Made by a program: the position numbers and the translations under genes. A stretch of DNA of 64,000 bases from Haloarcula sp. CBA1129 (GTDB taxonomy: Archaea; Halobacteriota; Halobacteria; Halobacteriales; Haloarculaceae). Below, piece by piece: positions 28,849-44,117 of the stretch; position 1 is the first letter of the stretch; each line of letters opens with the position of its first letter. The stretch is taken from NCBI RefSeq assembly GCF_008729015.1, contig NZ_RKSM01000001.1, positions 2,542,001 through 2,606,000 of the forward strand, in the 5' to 3' direction. The notes under the pieces were generated by a model, which was not told where the DNA came from, did no database searches, and worked only from the letters and a program-made list of their open reading frames with translations.

Positions 28849-30243
28849 ATGCCAACTAATGGCAGATCGGTCAACCGACGACAGTTGCTGAAGAGTACGG
28901 GCGTCGCAGGTGTGGCAGGGCTGACGGGACTGGCCGGTTGTTCCGGTGGCGACGGTGGCGACGGTGGTGGCGACGGCGGCGATGGTGGCAGTGATGGTGG
29001 CGGCGACGGCGGCGACGACTACCCGGCACTCGGAAACTTCCCGGTCGAGGGCGACACGGTCACCTTCGGGTTCAACGTTCCACAATCCGGGCCCTATTCG
29101 TCGGAGGGACAGGACGAACTTCGGGCGTACGAACTCGCCCAGAAGCACCTCAACAACGGGGGTGGCTGGGTGGACACCTTCGAGGACCTCAGCGGCGATG
29201 GCGTCCTCGGATACACGGTCGAGTCGGTGAACGGCGACACAGCGACCGACGCCGACACCGCCCGGCAGTCCGCCTCGCGGATGATAAACCGGGACAACGT
29301 GGTGATGATTTCAGGGGGCTCCTCCAGCGCGGTGGCTATCGCCGTGCAGGGGCTCTGTCAGTCGGAGAACGTCATGTTCATGGCCTGTCTGACTCACTCC
29401 AACGACACGACCGGGAAAGACTGCGCCCGGTACGGGTTCCGGGAGATGTTCAACGCGTACATGACCGGACAGGCACTCGCCCCGGTGCTTGAAAGCGAGT
29501 ACGGCTCGGACAACTCCTTCTACCAGCTGTACGCCGACTACTCTTGGGGCCAGACCCAGCAGGACTCGATGAACCAGTTCCTCTCGGAAATCGGCTGGGA
29601 GGAAGTCGACAGCGTTCCGACGCCGCTTGGGACCAGCGACTTCTCCTCGTATCTCTCGGAGGCCGCAAACAGCGGCGCGGACGTACTCGTGCTGAACCAC
29701 TACGGGCTGGACGGCGCGAACTCCGTCTCGCAGGCCGTCGACGCCGGTATCGACGAGGACATGGAGCTTGTCGTTCCGCTGTACAACCGCCCGATGGCGC
29801 AGGCCGCCGGTGGCTCCATCGAGGGTATCTACGGGACGATTGCCTGGGACTCCCAGATCGACAACGAGGCGTCGAACGCGTTCACGCAAGCGTTCCAAGA
29901 CGAGTACGACCGCGTCCCCTCCGGACCGGCCCAGCTCGCCTACGCACAGACGCTCCAGTACGCGGCCGCCGCCGAACGAGCGGGCACGTTCTACCCGCCG
30001 GAAGTCATCCGCCAACTGGAGGACTACGAGTACAGCAACATCGGCATGGGCGCGGAGACGATGCGTGCCTGCGACCATCAGGCCCAGCGTGACATCCCGG
30101 TCGCTCAGGGGCTCCCGGCGAGCGAGCAGGGCGACGGGAACTTCATCGAGATTGTCGAGATCACGTCCCGGGACGACGTCGGATACGGATGCGATTCCGG
30201 GCCAGCCGCGGAGTGCGAACTCGGCGAGTACGGGGACGAATAG
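28849..30243 (+). CDS. Branched-chain amino acid-type ABC transporter substrate-binding lipoprotein
   Basis: A 464-residue periplasmic-binding-fold protein of the LivJ/urea-amide receptor family. A Tat lipoprotein signal (NRRQLLKSTG, then GLAGCSGG) is followed by a Gly/Asp-rich linker of about 30 residues, then the binding domain (FGFNVPQSGPYSSEGQDELR). The ligand cannot be deduced; branched amino acids, urea and amides are all known in the family. ATG at 28849 gives a typical short Tat n-region; ATG at 28822 is the alternative. The permease and ATPase genes follow after a 131-nt gap, perhaps with partial termination so that more receptor is made. Confidence 0.9.
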   Translation: MPTNGRSVNRRQLLKSTGVAGVAGLTGLAGCSGGDGGDGGGDGGDGGSDGGGDGGDDYPALGNFPVEGDTVTFGFNVPQSGPYSSEGQDELRAYELAQKHLNNGGGWVDTFEDLSGDGVLGYTVESVNGDTATDADTARQSASRMINRDNVVMISGGSSSAVAIAVQGLCQSENVMFMACLTHSNDTTGKDCARYGFREMFNAYMTGQALAPVLESEYGSDNSFYQLYADYSWGQTQQDSMNQFLSEIGWEEVDSVPTPLGTSDFSSYLSEAANSGADVLVLNHYGLDGANSVSQAVDAGIDEDMELVVPLYNRPMAQAAGGSIEGIYGTIAWDSQIDNEASNAFTQAFQDEYDRVPSGPAQLAYAQTLQYAAAAERAGTFYPPEVIRQLEDYEYSNIGMGAETMRACDHQAQRDIPVAQGLPASEQGDGNFIEIVEITSRDDVGYGCDSGPAAECELGEYGDE

Positions 30244-37586: not shown

Positions 37587-37961
37587 ATGGGCTATCATCA
37601 GATTGATCCGCAGGACCTGTCGGAAACCGAGGACTACCCCTGTGACCGGCGGGGTATCTCCGACGCCACCGAACTTCACGCACTCCACGCGGCCACCTAC
37701 GAGATGGCACCCGGCGAGGACCTCTCGCGGACCTACCACTACCACGAGACGCGCGAGGAACTGTTCTACGTGCTCGATGGGGCACTTCACGTCGAGACGC
37801 CCGACGGGGAGTTCGTGGTCTCCGCTGGTGAGGTGTTCGTCGCCGAGCCGGACAGCCCACACCGTGCGCACAACCCCGCTGATGCCGACGCGTCGGTAAC
37901 CGTTCTGGGCGTCGGCGCGCCGCCGACCGACATTGCGCGCCCGTACGACCCAGACGCGTAG
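37587..37961 (+). CDS. Cupin-domain protein
   Basis: A 124-residue single-domain cupin. Metal-ligand motif 1 is YHYHETREELFYVLDG (His, His, Glu) and motif 2 includes PDSPHRAHNPA (His), so it can bind a metal in a beta-barrel. It could be a small dioxygenase, isomerase or sugar-binding protein; nothing fixes the substrate. CTTTTGCCC lies exactly 30 nt before the ATG, a TATA-like element for a leaderless transcript. Confidence 0.83.
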   Translation: MGYHQIDPQDLSETEDYPCDRRGISDATELHALHAATYEMAPGEDLSRTYHYHETREELFYVLDGALHVETPDGEFVVSAGEVFVAEPDSPHRAHNPADADASVTVLGVGAPPTDIARPYDPDA

Positions 37962-38016
37962 CGAGGGGCTCGGCGGTTCAGACACGCTTTTCAGCTACCC
38001 CATCACAGTTGCGCCT

Positions 38017-38667
38017 GTGACGAGCAAACAAGCGGTACGACAACAGCTGGTCGACAGCGGTGTCACGGCAGTCCTGCGAGGGATTCCCGAAGAAAAGATG
38101 GTCGACGTGGCGACCGCCGTCCACGAGGGCGGCGTCACGGCGCTGGAACTGACCGCCGACGCGAAGCGCTGCTCGGACATGATCGCCGCCGTCGACAAGG
38201 CGCTCGACGACACTGACGCAATCATCGGGGCCGGCACGGTCATGGACGCCGCCGCCGCCCGCAACGTCATCGAGGCCGGCGCGGAGTTCGTCCTCGCGCC
38301 GAACTTAAACGAGGACGTCATCGACGTGTGTAACCGCGAGGGCGTCCTCGCGATACCCGGCGTCATGACGCCGACGGAGGCCGCCGACGCGATGGAGGCT
38401 GGCGCGGACATCCTGAAGATGTTCCCGGCAAACACGGTCGGCCCGGCCCATATCGGCGCGCTGCAGGGGCCGCTGGGCGACGTGCCGATTATGCCGACTG
38501 GCGGTGTCTCAGTCGACAACGTCGACGAGTTCTTCGATGCCGGTGCGGTCGCCGTCGGCGCAGGCTCGGCGCTAGTCAACTACGAAGCCATCGAGAACGA
38601 CGACATGGACGGCGTCCGCGAACAGGCCGCGGAGTTCGTCGCCGCAGTCGAGGCGGCCCGAGAGTAG
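38017..38667 (+). CDS. KDPG/KHG aldolase
   Basis: A 216-residue class I aldolase of the bacterial-type KDPG/KHG family, which splits 2-keto-3-deoxy-6-phosphogluconate into pyruvate and glyceraldehyde-3-phosphate, the last step of the semi-phosphorylative Entner-Doudoroff route used by haloarchaea for glucose. The Schiff-base Lys is in ILKMFPANTVGP, the phosphate loop is MPTGGVSVDN, and GAGTVMDAAAA matches the family. The GTG start has a CTTTTCAGC box exactly 30 nt upstream. No kinase or dehydratase of the pathway is adjacent. Confidence 0.9.
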   Translation: MTSKQAVRQQLVDSGVTAVLRGIPEEKMVDVATAVHEGGVTALELTADAKRCSDMIAAVDKALDDTDAIIGAGTVMDAAAARNVIEAGAEFVLAPNLNEDVIDVCNREGVLAIPGVMTPTEAADAMEAGADILKMFPANTVGPAHIGALQGPLGDVPIMPTGGVSVDNVDEFFDAGAVAVGAGSALVNYEAIENDDMDGVREQAAEFVAAVEAARE

Positions 38668-38713: not shown

Positions 38714-39268
38714 CTACTCGTCGGTTCCGTTCTCAGCCGCCGCCGTCTCGTTGCTCGGCATCTCGATCACGTTACCAGACAGGTCTGTTTCGTTGCTCGG
38801 CATCTCGGTCACGTTATCAGACAGGTCTGTTTCGTTGCTCGGCATCTCGGTCACGTTATCAGACAGGTCTGTTTCGTTACCCGACACCTCAGTCTCGTTA
38901 TCAGACAGGCCTGTTTCGTTACCCGGCATCTCAGTCTCGTTATCAGACAGGCCTGTTTCGTTACCGGATAGTCCGGTCTCGTTTTCCGGGGTTCCGATTC
39001 CGGGTTCGTCGGTTTCCGTCTCGACACCCATATCGGTCTCTGCCTCCGTCTCGGCACCCATACCAGTCTCGGTTTCCATCGCCGACTCGGTATCGGCTTC
39101 GGTCATCGCGTCGGTTTCTTCGGCCGTGGGTGTGCCCGGGGCCTCGGCCCCGCCGCCGTCAGTCGCCGTACCGCCGCTGCCGCCGTCAGAGCCGCCACAG
39201 CCAGCCAGCGACACGAGTGCGCCGCCCGCGAGTTTGATTACGTTCCGTCGAGATGTGATTCGTTCCAT
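38714..39268 (-). CDS. Tat lipoprotein with tandem N-glycosylation sequon repeats
   Basis: A 184-residue surface protein of unknown function. The start is a Tat lipoprotein signal (SRRNVIKLAGG, then SLAGCGG). It is followed by a Gly/Asp/Thr linker and an extremely acidic Thr/Glu/Met region. The C-terminal half consists of 14-residue units of the type NETGLSDNETEMPG, which place an NET or NVT sequon every seven residues. No folded domain is visible. The likely picture is a lipid-anchored, heavily N-glycosylated, mucin-like stalk on the cell surface. It is monocistronic, with a TATA-like box (minus strand CATAAACC) about 35 nt upstream. Confidence 0.75.
   Translation of the reverse strand: MERITSRRNVIKLAGGALVSLAGCGGSDGGSGGTATDGGGAEAPGTPTAEETDAMTEADTESAMETETGMGAETEAETDMGVETETDEPGIGTPENETGLSGNETGLSDNETEMPGNETGLSDNETEVSGNETDLSDNVTEMPSNETDLSDNVTEMPSNETDLSGNVIEMPSNETAAAENGTDE
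38756..38965. repeat. Five tandem 42-bp repeats inside the lipoprotein gene
   Basis: Five back-to-back 42-bp units run 38756-38797, 38798-38839, 38840-38881, 38882-38923 and 38924-38965. Units 2 and 3 differ only at the last bases; units 4 and 5 are a slightly diverged subfamily. The length is a multiple of three, so the reading frame is kept and unit number can change without frameshift. A degenerate unit follows. Confidence 0.93.
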
Positions 39269-39878
39269 AGCGTTTACACGAAGTTCACCGGGGCGGTTTA
39301 TGAATGACCTGCTAAGTCTCGGGTGGAGCGCCGACGGAACAGATTAGCCACACCCGAAGGTGGGCCGGTTCGGAAAAGAAGCGTACACAGTCTGTTCCAG
39401 TCCATAATCGATGTCGAATCCGAGATTTTGGCCAGTTCACGGGCGGTTCCGTGGTTCGCTCGTCCGAAATTCGGCGTGCAGCGATATGGGCGGATAATCA
39501 GGTTACAACTATTCACGCTGCTCCCCGGCAGTTAGCAAGCGGATATATCTGCATACCCGGGGCCGCGCTGTCTGTTTGGTACCGGCCCTGCGCTGTGAGT
39601 CAGACGACCGTTCAGCAGTCAAAGCCCACTCGACCGGAGTTTAGTAACACAATAATCGTTGATTCAGTGAGTCCGTACCCGTATCGCTTGCTGCTCTCGT
39701 TCGGAGGGCGTTCGGTCCCGTAGTGCTTGGCGCGGTCAGCGCAGTTGATGAGCCGAGGGATGTCGGAGTCGGACAGTCCCAGAACTGGTTCCATCACTCC
39801 CCGTATCCACGGGCACTCTCGCAGCCGCGATTGTCGTCACCGCCATATAGCAGCAAAAGGAACCGCGAAGTCTGATGC
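39269..39878. other. Gene-free interval between the repeat lipoprotein and ftsY
   Basis: About 610 bases without a convincing gene. The end near 39299 holds the promoter of the repeat lipoprotein. Short open frames exist on both strands, the best being 61 codons on the minus strand (39797-39612) with partly haloarchaeal codon use, but no start signal or family is recognised. The stretch 39640-39670 is AT-richer than its surroundings. It may hold decayed coding DNA or an untranslated RNA; I cannot support either. Confidence 0.5.
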
Positions 39879-41168
39879 TTACTCGCCGATGAGACTGTCG
39901 ACGATTTCCTCGGGGTCGAACGGTTCGAGGTCGTCGTAGTCTTGGCCGGTCCCGAGGAAGAGGATCGGCTTGCCAGTGACGTGGGCGACGGAGATTGCCG
40001 CGCCGCCCTGTGGGTCGGCGTCGGCCTTCGTCAGGATCGCCCCGTCGATCTCGGCCGCGTCGTTGAACTCCCGCGCCCGGTTGACGGCATCCTGCCCCGC
40101 GACCGCCTCGTCGACGAACAGCGTCATGTCCGGGTCGATGTTGCGGTCGATCTTCTCTAACTGGGCCATGAGGTCGTCAGAGGTGTGGAGTCGACCGGCC
40201 GTGTCACCCAGCACCACGTCGATATCGTTGGCCTTGGCGTACTCGACGGCGTCGTAGACGACCGCCGTCGGGTCTGAGCCCTGCTCGTGAGTGATGATCT
40301 TCTTGTCGAGGTTCTCGGCGTGTTTCTCCAGTTGCTCGTTCGCGCCGGCACGGTAGGTGTCGCCGTTGGCGAGCACCGTCGAGAGCCCGCGGTCCTCGAA
40401 GTACTGAGCGAGTTTCGCTATCGAGGTCGTCTTCCCGACGCCGTTGACGCCGGTGAATACGATGGTGACCGGCTTGTCGGCCTGCTGAACACGTTCGTCG
40501 AAGTCGAACTGCCCGACGTTGATAACGTCGTACAGCGACTCCCGGAGCGCGTCCCGGACGAGATTGCCCGTACTGGAGAGCCGTCGACGGGTCTGGCCCG
40601 TGAGGTTCTCCTTGACGCCGTCGAGAATCTCGTTGGCGACGCTCATCTCCACGTCGCTCGACAGCAACGCCAGTTCGAGGTCGTCGAGGTGCCCCTGCAG
40701 GTCCTCTTCTTCGATGACCGTCTTGCCGGTCGCCATGAGCTTCGCCTTCGCGGCGAGCCCGCGGCCGCCGTCGTCGTCGTCGTCTTCTTCGGACTCCGCG
40801 TCCTCCGCAGTCTCCGCGGCGTCATCCGCTTTGGAGTCTTCTTTTGGGTCCGCTTCTTCGACTGCTGCAGACGGCTCTGTGGCTGACTCCGCTGTCGCCT
40901 CGGAGCCAGCGGCTGGCGGTTCAGAAGCAGCCTCGGGCTGGTCGTCCACGATTGCCGGCTCTGACTCAGCCGTCGCCGTTTCGGCATCTGACGGTTCGGC
41001 GTCCGCTGTCTCCGGCGCGGGCTCGGTGTCGGCCGCTTGATCGGCGGGCGCTTCCCCATCAGCCTCGTCGACATCCGGTTCGTCCTCCGCCTCGAGTGCG
41101 TCGTCGTCAACGTCTTCCTCGACGTCACTCGTGAACCCGCTGAGTTTGTCCTTCAGTCCGTCGAACAT
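39879..41168 (-). CDS. ftsY: Signal recognition particle receptor FtsY
   Basis: A 429-residue SRP receptor GTPase that docks SRP-ribosome complexes at the membrane. The first 130 residues are an extremely acidic Glu/Asp/Ala/Pro domain, followed by the N-domain and a G-domain with P-loop GVNGVGKTTS, the DTAGRLHTSDDLM switch, TKADADPQGG (G4) and the C-terminal FLGTGQDYDDLEPFDP. The long acidic N-terminus is common in haloarchaeal FtsY and probably lies near the membrane. It ends the minus-strand block LX, prefoldin alpha, FtsY. Confidence 0.97.
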   Translation of the reverse strand: MFDGLKDKLSGFTSDVEEDVDDDALEAEDEPDVDEADGEAPADQAADTEPAPETADAEPSDAETATAESEPAIVDDQPEAASEPPAAGSEATAESATEPSAAVEEADPKEDSKADDAAETAEDAESEEDDDDDGGRGLAAKAKLMATGKTVIEEEDLQGHLDDLELALLSSDVEMSVANEILDGVKENLTGQTRRRLSSTGNLVRDALRESLYDVINVGQFDFDERVQQADKPVTIVFTGVNGVGKTTSIAKLAQYFEDRGLSTVLANGDTYRAGANEQLEKHAENLDKKIITHEQGSDPTAVVYDAVEYAKANDIDVVLGDTAGRLHTSDDLMAQLEKIDRNIDPDMTLFVDEAVAGQDAVNRAREFNDAAEIDGAILTKADADPQGGAAISVAHVTGKPILFLGTGQDYDDLEPFDPEEIVDSLIGE

Positions 41169-43601: not shown

Positions 43602-44117
43602 ATGAAGCGCCGGAGATTCCTCCAGACAATGGGTGTCGGTGCAACAGTCGTCAGCTCTGGTTGTGTGGGTGGTGGCGGCGAGGTCGTTGTCAGCGTGCAA
43701 CAGGATGTCCGGGTCGAGCCACACGATGCGTGGATCAAAGCGGAGATCCCGGACGTCTCTGATCCCGGCGGCGAGATACAGTATATCGTCAAGGCGGACA
43801 TCCCGTTCAACGTGTACGTCTTCACCGATCGGGAAAATTTCGAACAGTACGACACGTTCATCAAGGGCCGAGAGCCCGACGAGACGCCGCCGGGGAACCC
43901 CAAGTTCAGCCAGACAGCGATCCAGCCCGAAGGGTCGGACATCTACGAAGCGTCGACGGACGACGACGGCGCGCGGGAGTCGCTGGACGAACCCGGGCCG
44001 TACTTTTTCGCAGTCGACCACTCGAATTACCGGATGGAAACCCGCGTTGAAGACTACGACGACCCGCTGCAGGCCTTCGTCGATCTCACTGTTATCCGCA
44101 GCAAACTCCCGTTCTAA
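43602..44117 (+). CDS. Tat lipoprotein of unknown function
   Basis: A 171-residue exported protein. The start KRRRFLQTMGVGATVV with SSGCVGG gives a Tat signal and lipobox Cys near residue 21. The mature part is a single acidic beta-rich domain (VSVQQDVRVEPHDAWIKAEI, VDHSNYRMETRVED) resembling a small sandwich fold. It has no catalytic motif or recognised family. The final bases overlap the end of the convergent ZIP gene by four. Confidence 0.72.
   Translation: MKRRRFLQTMGVGATVVSSGCVGGGGEVVVSVQQDVRVEPHDAWIKAEIPDVSDPGGEIQYIVKADIPFNVYVFTDRENFEQYDTFIKGREPDETPPGNPKFSQTAIQPEGSDIYEASTDDDGARESLDEPGPYFFAVDHSNYRMETRVEDYDDPLQAFVDLTVIRSKLPF

Follow-up and report, generated by a model that had tools for sequence, protein, structure and literature searches.

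What would a small lipoprotein carrying a regular row of N-glycosylation sequons do at the surface of a haloarchaeal cell, and is it the sequons or the DNA repeats encoding them that are kept? The question is raised by a gene in a 64,000-nt stretch of the genome of Haloarcula sp. CBA1129 (hereafter the window), which lies on a 3.48-Mb contig within a genome of 4.05 Mb. The features of the locus are collected in Table 1.

A lipoprotein gene with a heptad sequon array

The encoded protein consists, in order, of MERITSRRNVIKLAGGALVSLAGC, an acidic linker rich in Gly, Thr and Glu, and a heptad array that runs to the stop codon. In the window, this array is the strongest found by TRF (period 42, 5.1 copies, 93% matches, score 332), with the next non-overlapping tandem array scoring 77. 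Between units, identity ranges from 42/42 for units 3 and 4, through 40 of 42 positions for units 1 and 2, down to 31 of 42 for the most distant pair. The 12 sequons (nine NET, two NVT and one NGT) share a common 7-residue register with spacings of 7,7,7,7,7,7,7,7,7,14,7, where the 14 is due to one heptad broken by a T to I change. When the mature residues were shuffled 2000 times, the mean was 3.0 sequons and the maximum 8; a chance repeat can be ruled out by these shuffles together with the TRF score. An earlier note on this DNA had described five in-frame 42-bp units, a sequon every seven residues, a lipid-anchored acidic protein, and two near-identical units pointing to recent expansion, all of which were borne out, the lipid anchor by motif (twin-arginine plus LAGC). 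Its choice of 42 bp as the repeat unit holds for this gene but not for the family, as 42 bp correspond to two heptads and the protein repeats with the 7-residue heptad as its basic unit; on the upstream side the sequon register continues for two heptads beyond the 42-bp units, and on the downstream side for one. The lineage of the window owes its clean 42-bp period to a recent expansion, and L004 expanded independently. Elsewhere in the window, a Gly/Asp-rich tandem repeat with GGCGACGGT-type units is found at 28944-29019.

Table 1 Features of the lipoprotein gene and its neighbours, in window coordinates
Feature	Coordinates	Strand	Basis
ftsY (SRP receptor), conserved upstream neighbour	39879..41168	minus	TIGR00064, 294 bits; synteny
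TATA-like box TTCATAAA in conserved block CTTAGCAGGTCATTCATAAAC, centre ~32 nt before ATG	39297..39304	minus	orthologue alignment
Whole lipoprotein gene, 184 aa, ATG start, Tat-type, with sequon array	38714..39268	minus	ORF, orthologues and pN/pS
Signal peptide, residues 1-23, twin-arginine motif TSRRNVIK	39200..39268	minus	sequence
Cys24 of the lipobox LAGC, putative lipid anchor	39197..39199	minus	L21-A22-G23-C24 invariant in 15 orthologues
Acidic Gly/Thr/Glu-rich linker, residues 25-91, sequon-free in this species	38996..39196	minus	sequence
Sequon array, residues 92-182, with 12 intact N-x-T sequons among 13 heptads	38723..38995	minus	register, spacing and heptad conservation
Five 42-bp tandem units (38912-38953, 38870-38911, 38828-38869, 38786-38827, 38744-38785)	38744..38953	minus	TRF and unit identities
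Broken sequon NVI (ACC to ATC), unit 5	38765..38773	minus	sequence
KDPG/KHG aldolase (eda), conserved convergent downstream neighbour	37933..38667	plus	PF01081, TIGR01182; synteny

Within the signal peptide, R7, R8, N9, V10 and K12 are invariant in the 15 orthologues. The curated Tat model of NCBIfam, TIGR01409, scores it at 10.8 bits, below the cut-off of 16.7; this being a generic and non-defining model of short signals, the protein can be filed provisionally as a Tat lipoprotein by its motif and lipobox. The mature lipoprotein is acidic and entirely lacks K, R, H, W, F and Y. No Pfam domain, DUF4397 included, is matched in the 184 residues. A disordered chain is predicted for the mature part: the model built by AlphaFold2 from the single sequence has neither a helix nor a strand element and a mean pLDDT of 53.6, a model made without an alignment being weak evidence for disorder. 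A second short lipoprotein (RRRFLQTMGVGATVVSSGC) is encoded at 43602-44117 on the plus strand of the window and has no Pfam or NCBIfam match.

Upstream of the gene, TTCATAAA is unchanged in 14 of the 15 orthologues (L009 has TTCACAAA), and the distance from the block CTTAGCAGGTCATTCATAAAC to the ATG is fixed among them. This alignment suggests a promoter whose TATA box would give a nearly leaderless transcript. The orthologues, the pN/pS values and this conserved block together rule out a reading-frame artefact. In four aligned orthologues, another conserved block, TTCGGGTGTGGCTAATC, lies upstream of the TATA-like box at ~39340-39360 on the minus strand and is a possible regulator site.

The ftsY locus in the genus Haloarcula

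Close relatives of the lipoprotein were restricted to the genus Haloarcula in a protein search. A profile search of 32 Haloarcula genomes returned 15 full-length members, that of the window included, with E values from 9e-82 to 7e-48 followed by a steep drop; outside the genus, the best hit of the family-level search reached only 4e-10 and covered the signal and linker region. A weak second DNA match in the same genome (L002) falls within the gene of a substrate-binding-like lipoprotein without an array. Haloarcula mannanilytica and H. salina are the two named relatives that carry the gene. The 15 array-bearing genomes form exactly one clade of the FtsY tree (support 100/99). The locus order ftsY-[lipoprotein]-eda-cupin-permease-ffh is conserved, and in three genomes (G028, G023 and G004) a sulfite/nitrite-reductase-like gene intervenes between ftsY and the lipoprotein gene. 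In G013, ftsY was matched as three overlapping pieces in different frames (G013:C1:1864790-1865829), which suggests frameshifts or an assembly error. The variable unit number proposed in the earlier note is seen between species, with 9-15 sequons among the orthologues; the sample comprises one genome per species, and the differences in array length are differences between species.

The ftsY-eda interval is not empty in the sister Haloarcula clade, where it is occupied by a lipoprotein of the DUF4397 family (PF14344, 121-134 bits; L067-L070 and L073-L075). The two kinds of lipoprotein share the site by ftsY, the strand, usually eda beyond, and a Tat/lipobox start, and the array profile matches the sister-clade proteins at E values of 1e-9 to 1e-14. 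In contrast to the array protein, the DUF4397 lipoprotein has ~305 aa and two DUF4397 stretches, and the mature parts of two examples contain one and no sequon. Position and signal peptide are the only basis on which the two may be called homologous. In one more distant species, a 127-aa version with a few sequons is found at the ftsY locus.

In one species pair, recombination has exchanged the array. L013 (from G012) resembles L009 (G006) upstream of the gene and in its first 240 bp; where the array begins it switches to resemble L015 (G018), and shortly after the stop codon it is L009-like again. Informative sites divide between L009 and L015 as 175:22 over the 1,080 bp that precede the array, 1:69 in the tract from about +240 to +660, and 42:15 in the next 780 bp, and the switch of ancestry at the array has p < 1e-39 (flank entered as 178:28). 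The array of G012 is 98.7% identical to that of G018, while the 400 bp upstream are 79% identical. The tract of ~0.4 kb spans the sequon array and a short 3' spacer. Past +1440, L013 turns L015-like once more, a second switch near the cupin and permease genes; since recombination also occurs outside the array, the exchange need not mean diversifying selection.

Constraint on the sequons and competing readings

Conservation along the array was read from the 120 interior heptads of 13 orthologues, which lie between the outermost sequons and were counted in register whether or not they contain a sequon. Of these, 94.2% retain N and 99.2% retain T, the x position is E in 85%, and the commonest residue elsewhere accounts for 25-80%. 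At the T codon, silent differences are found in 67% of pairs and residue changes in 1.7%; some x positions vary (E, V, G, D, A, K, Q and M), with N and T unchanged. Among five close species pairs, the least diverged has a whole-gene pN/pS of 0.70 and the other four have 0.17-0.28; per site, non-synonymous differences amount to 0.006 for N, 0.008 for T and 0.018 for x, rising to 0.057 across the remaining array positions, and the linker diverges freely (pN 0.048). N and T together differ from the other array positions in these pairs (p=0.00015) but not significantly from x (p=0.36), and over the heptads N differs from x with p=0.03 (all heptads) or 0.08 (distinct heptads) and T from x with p=0.00004 (all heptads), values that serve only as guides because the heptads share ancestry and duplication and are not independent. 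As x is usually Glu and fairly conserved, and the comparison of N or N plus T with x is weak, the constraint may partly target the peptide NET itself. In most relatives, mean identity at a lag of 42 is mostly 0.55-0.67, so the DNA repeat has decayed while the sequons persist, and homogenisation alone can be ruled out as the cause of conservation for most species. These comparisons support the view in the earlier note of the sequon array as the feature under selection, with the sequon itself conserved and the remaining array positions variable.

A simpler reading is that the mature part is an acidic Thr/Pro/Gly-rich halophilic spacer, in which a PGNET seed was expanded, leaving the sequons as a by-product with glycans on few of them or none. 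Haloarchaeal proteins often have acidic tails of low complexity. At the same locus, the more distant species G001 and G026 carry short Thr/Glu stubs with the period-8 unit EETETGM and no Asn, in L014 the sequon-less heptad EMGETET stands in register with ELGENET and DMPGNET, and L150 has a DDAPGNS repeat without sequons. The mixed heptads of L014 suggest that single A/C changes could turn a Thr/Glu tract into a sequon array. Against such a by-product stand the decayed arrays, where N and T are kept most and divergence falls on silent sites and the other positions; the extra isolated sequons with varying x near the lipid anchor of L005, L007, L008 and L016 (NST, NAT, NGT and NGT); and the PGN-x-T heptads with differing x in unrelated proteins. 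On balance, we regard a bare spacer as unlikely, if worth keeping in mind.

Two further readings seem far less probable still. Were Thr rather than Asn modified, the protein would be a short, mucin-like, O-glycosylated stalk, which would suit the standing of T as the most conserved heptad position (99%), the Thr-rich linker, and the O-glycopeptides reported for Haloferax volcanii (PMC8241124); it would leave unexplained why Asn, two residues before T, is kept in 94% of heptads, and we give this version very little credence. The array could also be a contingency repeat whose copy number shifts between strains to alter the surface, for example for virus adsorption. The two identical 42-bp units, the unit number differences between species and the one clear tract of interspecies exchange would agree with this, but every unit is in frame and on/off switching is thus precluded, the DNA repeat of most relatives looks too diverged for frequent slippage, and the recombination near the permease gene means that the array tract need not be a selected one. 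No link to viruses was found, and the adhesion or phage-defence coat suggested in the earlier note is unsupported, with neither a neighbouring gene nor other evidence found for it. A contingency role has, in our judgement, a slight chance of being correct.

A candidate N-glycan stalk and its known counterparts

The reading that we favour, and consider fairly probable, is that the gene encodes a Tat-exported, lipid-anchored and disordered surface stalk that is glycosylated by AglB and displays a row of N-glycans. The prolipoprotein would be exported by the Tat pathway and lipidated at Cys24, as its motifs indicate, and the acidic linker of ~67 residues may hold the array off the membrane. All 12 sequons, or a subset of them, could then be glycosylated by AglB; on an extended chain the sequons would lie ~2-2.5 nm apart. 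AglB is encoded in the same genome (PF02516 over cut-off, G000:C1:435120-436451, with the WWDYG motif present), and in Haloferax volcanii, AglB-dependent N-glycans occur on Tat and Sec lipobox proteins such as HVO_1624 (PMC8241124). The outcome may be a brush of glycans above the membrane, hydrated and with a strong negative charge, that stands within the S-layer or passes through it and serves as a spacer or a local glycocalyx. Matches to the S-layer family TIGR04216 in this genome are all below threshold. Over time, the number of units would drift through in-frame slippage or unequal recombination, and whole arrays can pass between species, as shown once. In a bolder form, the domainless lipoprotein of the ftsY locus, where the sister clade has its DUF4397 protein, would be a pure scaffold for spacing glycans, with the DNA repeat setting their number and pitch, selection holding each sequon, and species swapping array cassettes to change their coat; this we think doubtful.

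An array free of domains isolates the number and spacing of N-glycosylation sites, and could make the density of glycans on an archaeal surface directly testable. Since the mature part lacks Lys and Arg in this species, trypsin releases no internal peptides from it and standard tryptic proteomics would not detect the protein; archaeal glycoproteomes may contain an overlooked share of such proteins.

In the limited library searched, no description was found of a conserved, domainless sequon-array lipoprotein, and its features can be compared with several known systems. Like the haloarchaeal Tat lipoproteins of the halocyanin type (PMC2945643), it has a twin-arginine signal, the lipobox LAGC and a low-complexity linker after the Cys; in those proteins a folded domain typically follows the linker, whereas here the array ends the protein. 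With the AglB-dependent N-glycoproteins of Haloferax volcanii it shares predicted export, N-x-S/T sites and an AglB in the organism. Those include the secreted HVO_2160, with 19 sites, and HVO_1624, a Tat lipobox protein; the available part of that report (PMC8241124) describes no regular tandem sequon array over a whole protein, and the N-glycans of the Haloarcula array are predicted ones. Halomucin of Haloquadratum walsbyi, the length of which varies between strains, is likewise proposed to be a protective hull at the cell surface, but it is a secreted protein of 9159 aa with a Sec signal, and neither a small lipoprotein nor a sequon heptad array (PMC4378361). Mucins and halomucin are large and secreted, with mucin-type domains or Pro/Thr/Ser tracts; the protein described here has 184 aa, a lipobox, no domain match and an N-x-T unit. 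The term 'mucin-like' used in the earlier note is thus apt as an analogy only, the conserved unit being an N-glycosylation sequon and not a Pro/Thr/Ser tract for O-glycosylation.

Counterparts in design are other haloarchaeal surface proteins with N-x-T at every seventh residue, often as PGNxT (L087, L088/L089, L149 and L151), which differ in having other signal peptides and mostly large domains, and with which no homology is seen beyond the low-complexity array. For instance, the heptad sequons of the subtilase-like L088 and L089 form an N-terminal region (PPSDNTT EAPENET; PPSDNTTEAPENET in the subtilase-like protein), and L087, PhoX-like by reading of its sequence, has a tail of PGNSTDA heptads. 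L149 (G201), a large protein of surface type from another family, contains an extended PGN(A/G)TER run (PGNATER/PGNGTER), which has the same pitch, another x, and Arg beside an acidic residue. L151 (G306), from another haloarchaeal family, is a 232-aa open frame of exported appearance made up almost entirely of PGNDTAT-type heptads (~18 sequons), and is possibly an independent stand-alone sequon array. Since heptad N-x-T arrays recur in such unrelated proteins, the Haloarcula lipoprotein can be viewed as a stripped-down variant of the sequon-rich linker, a kind known in outline.
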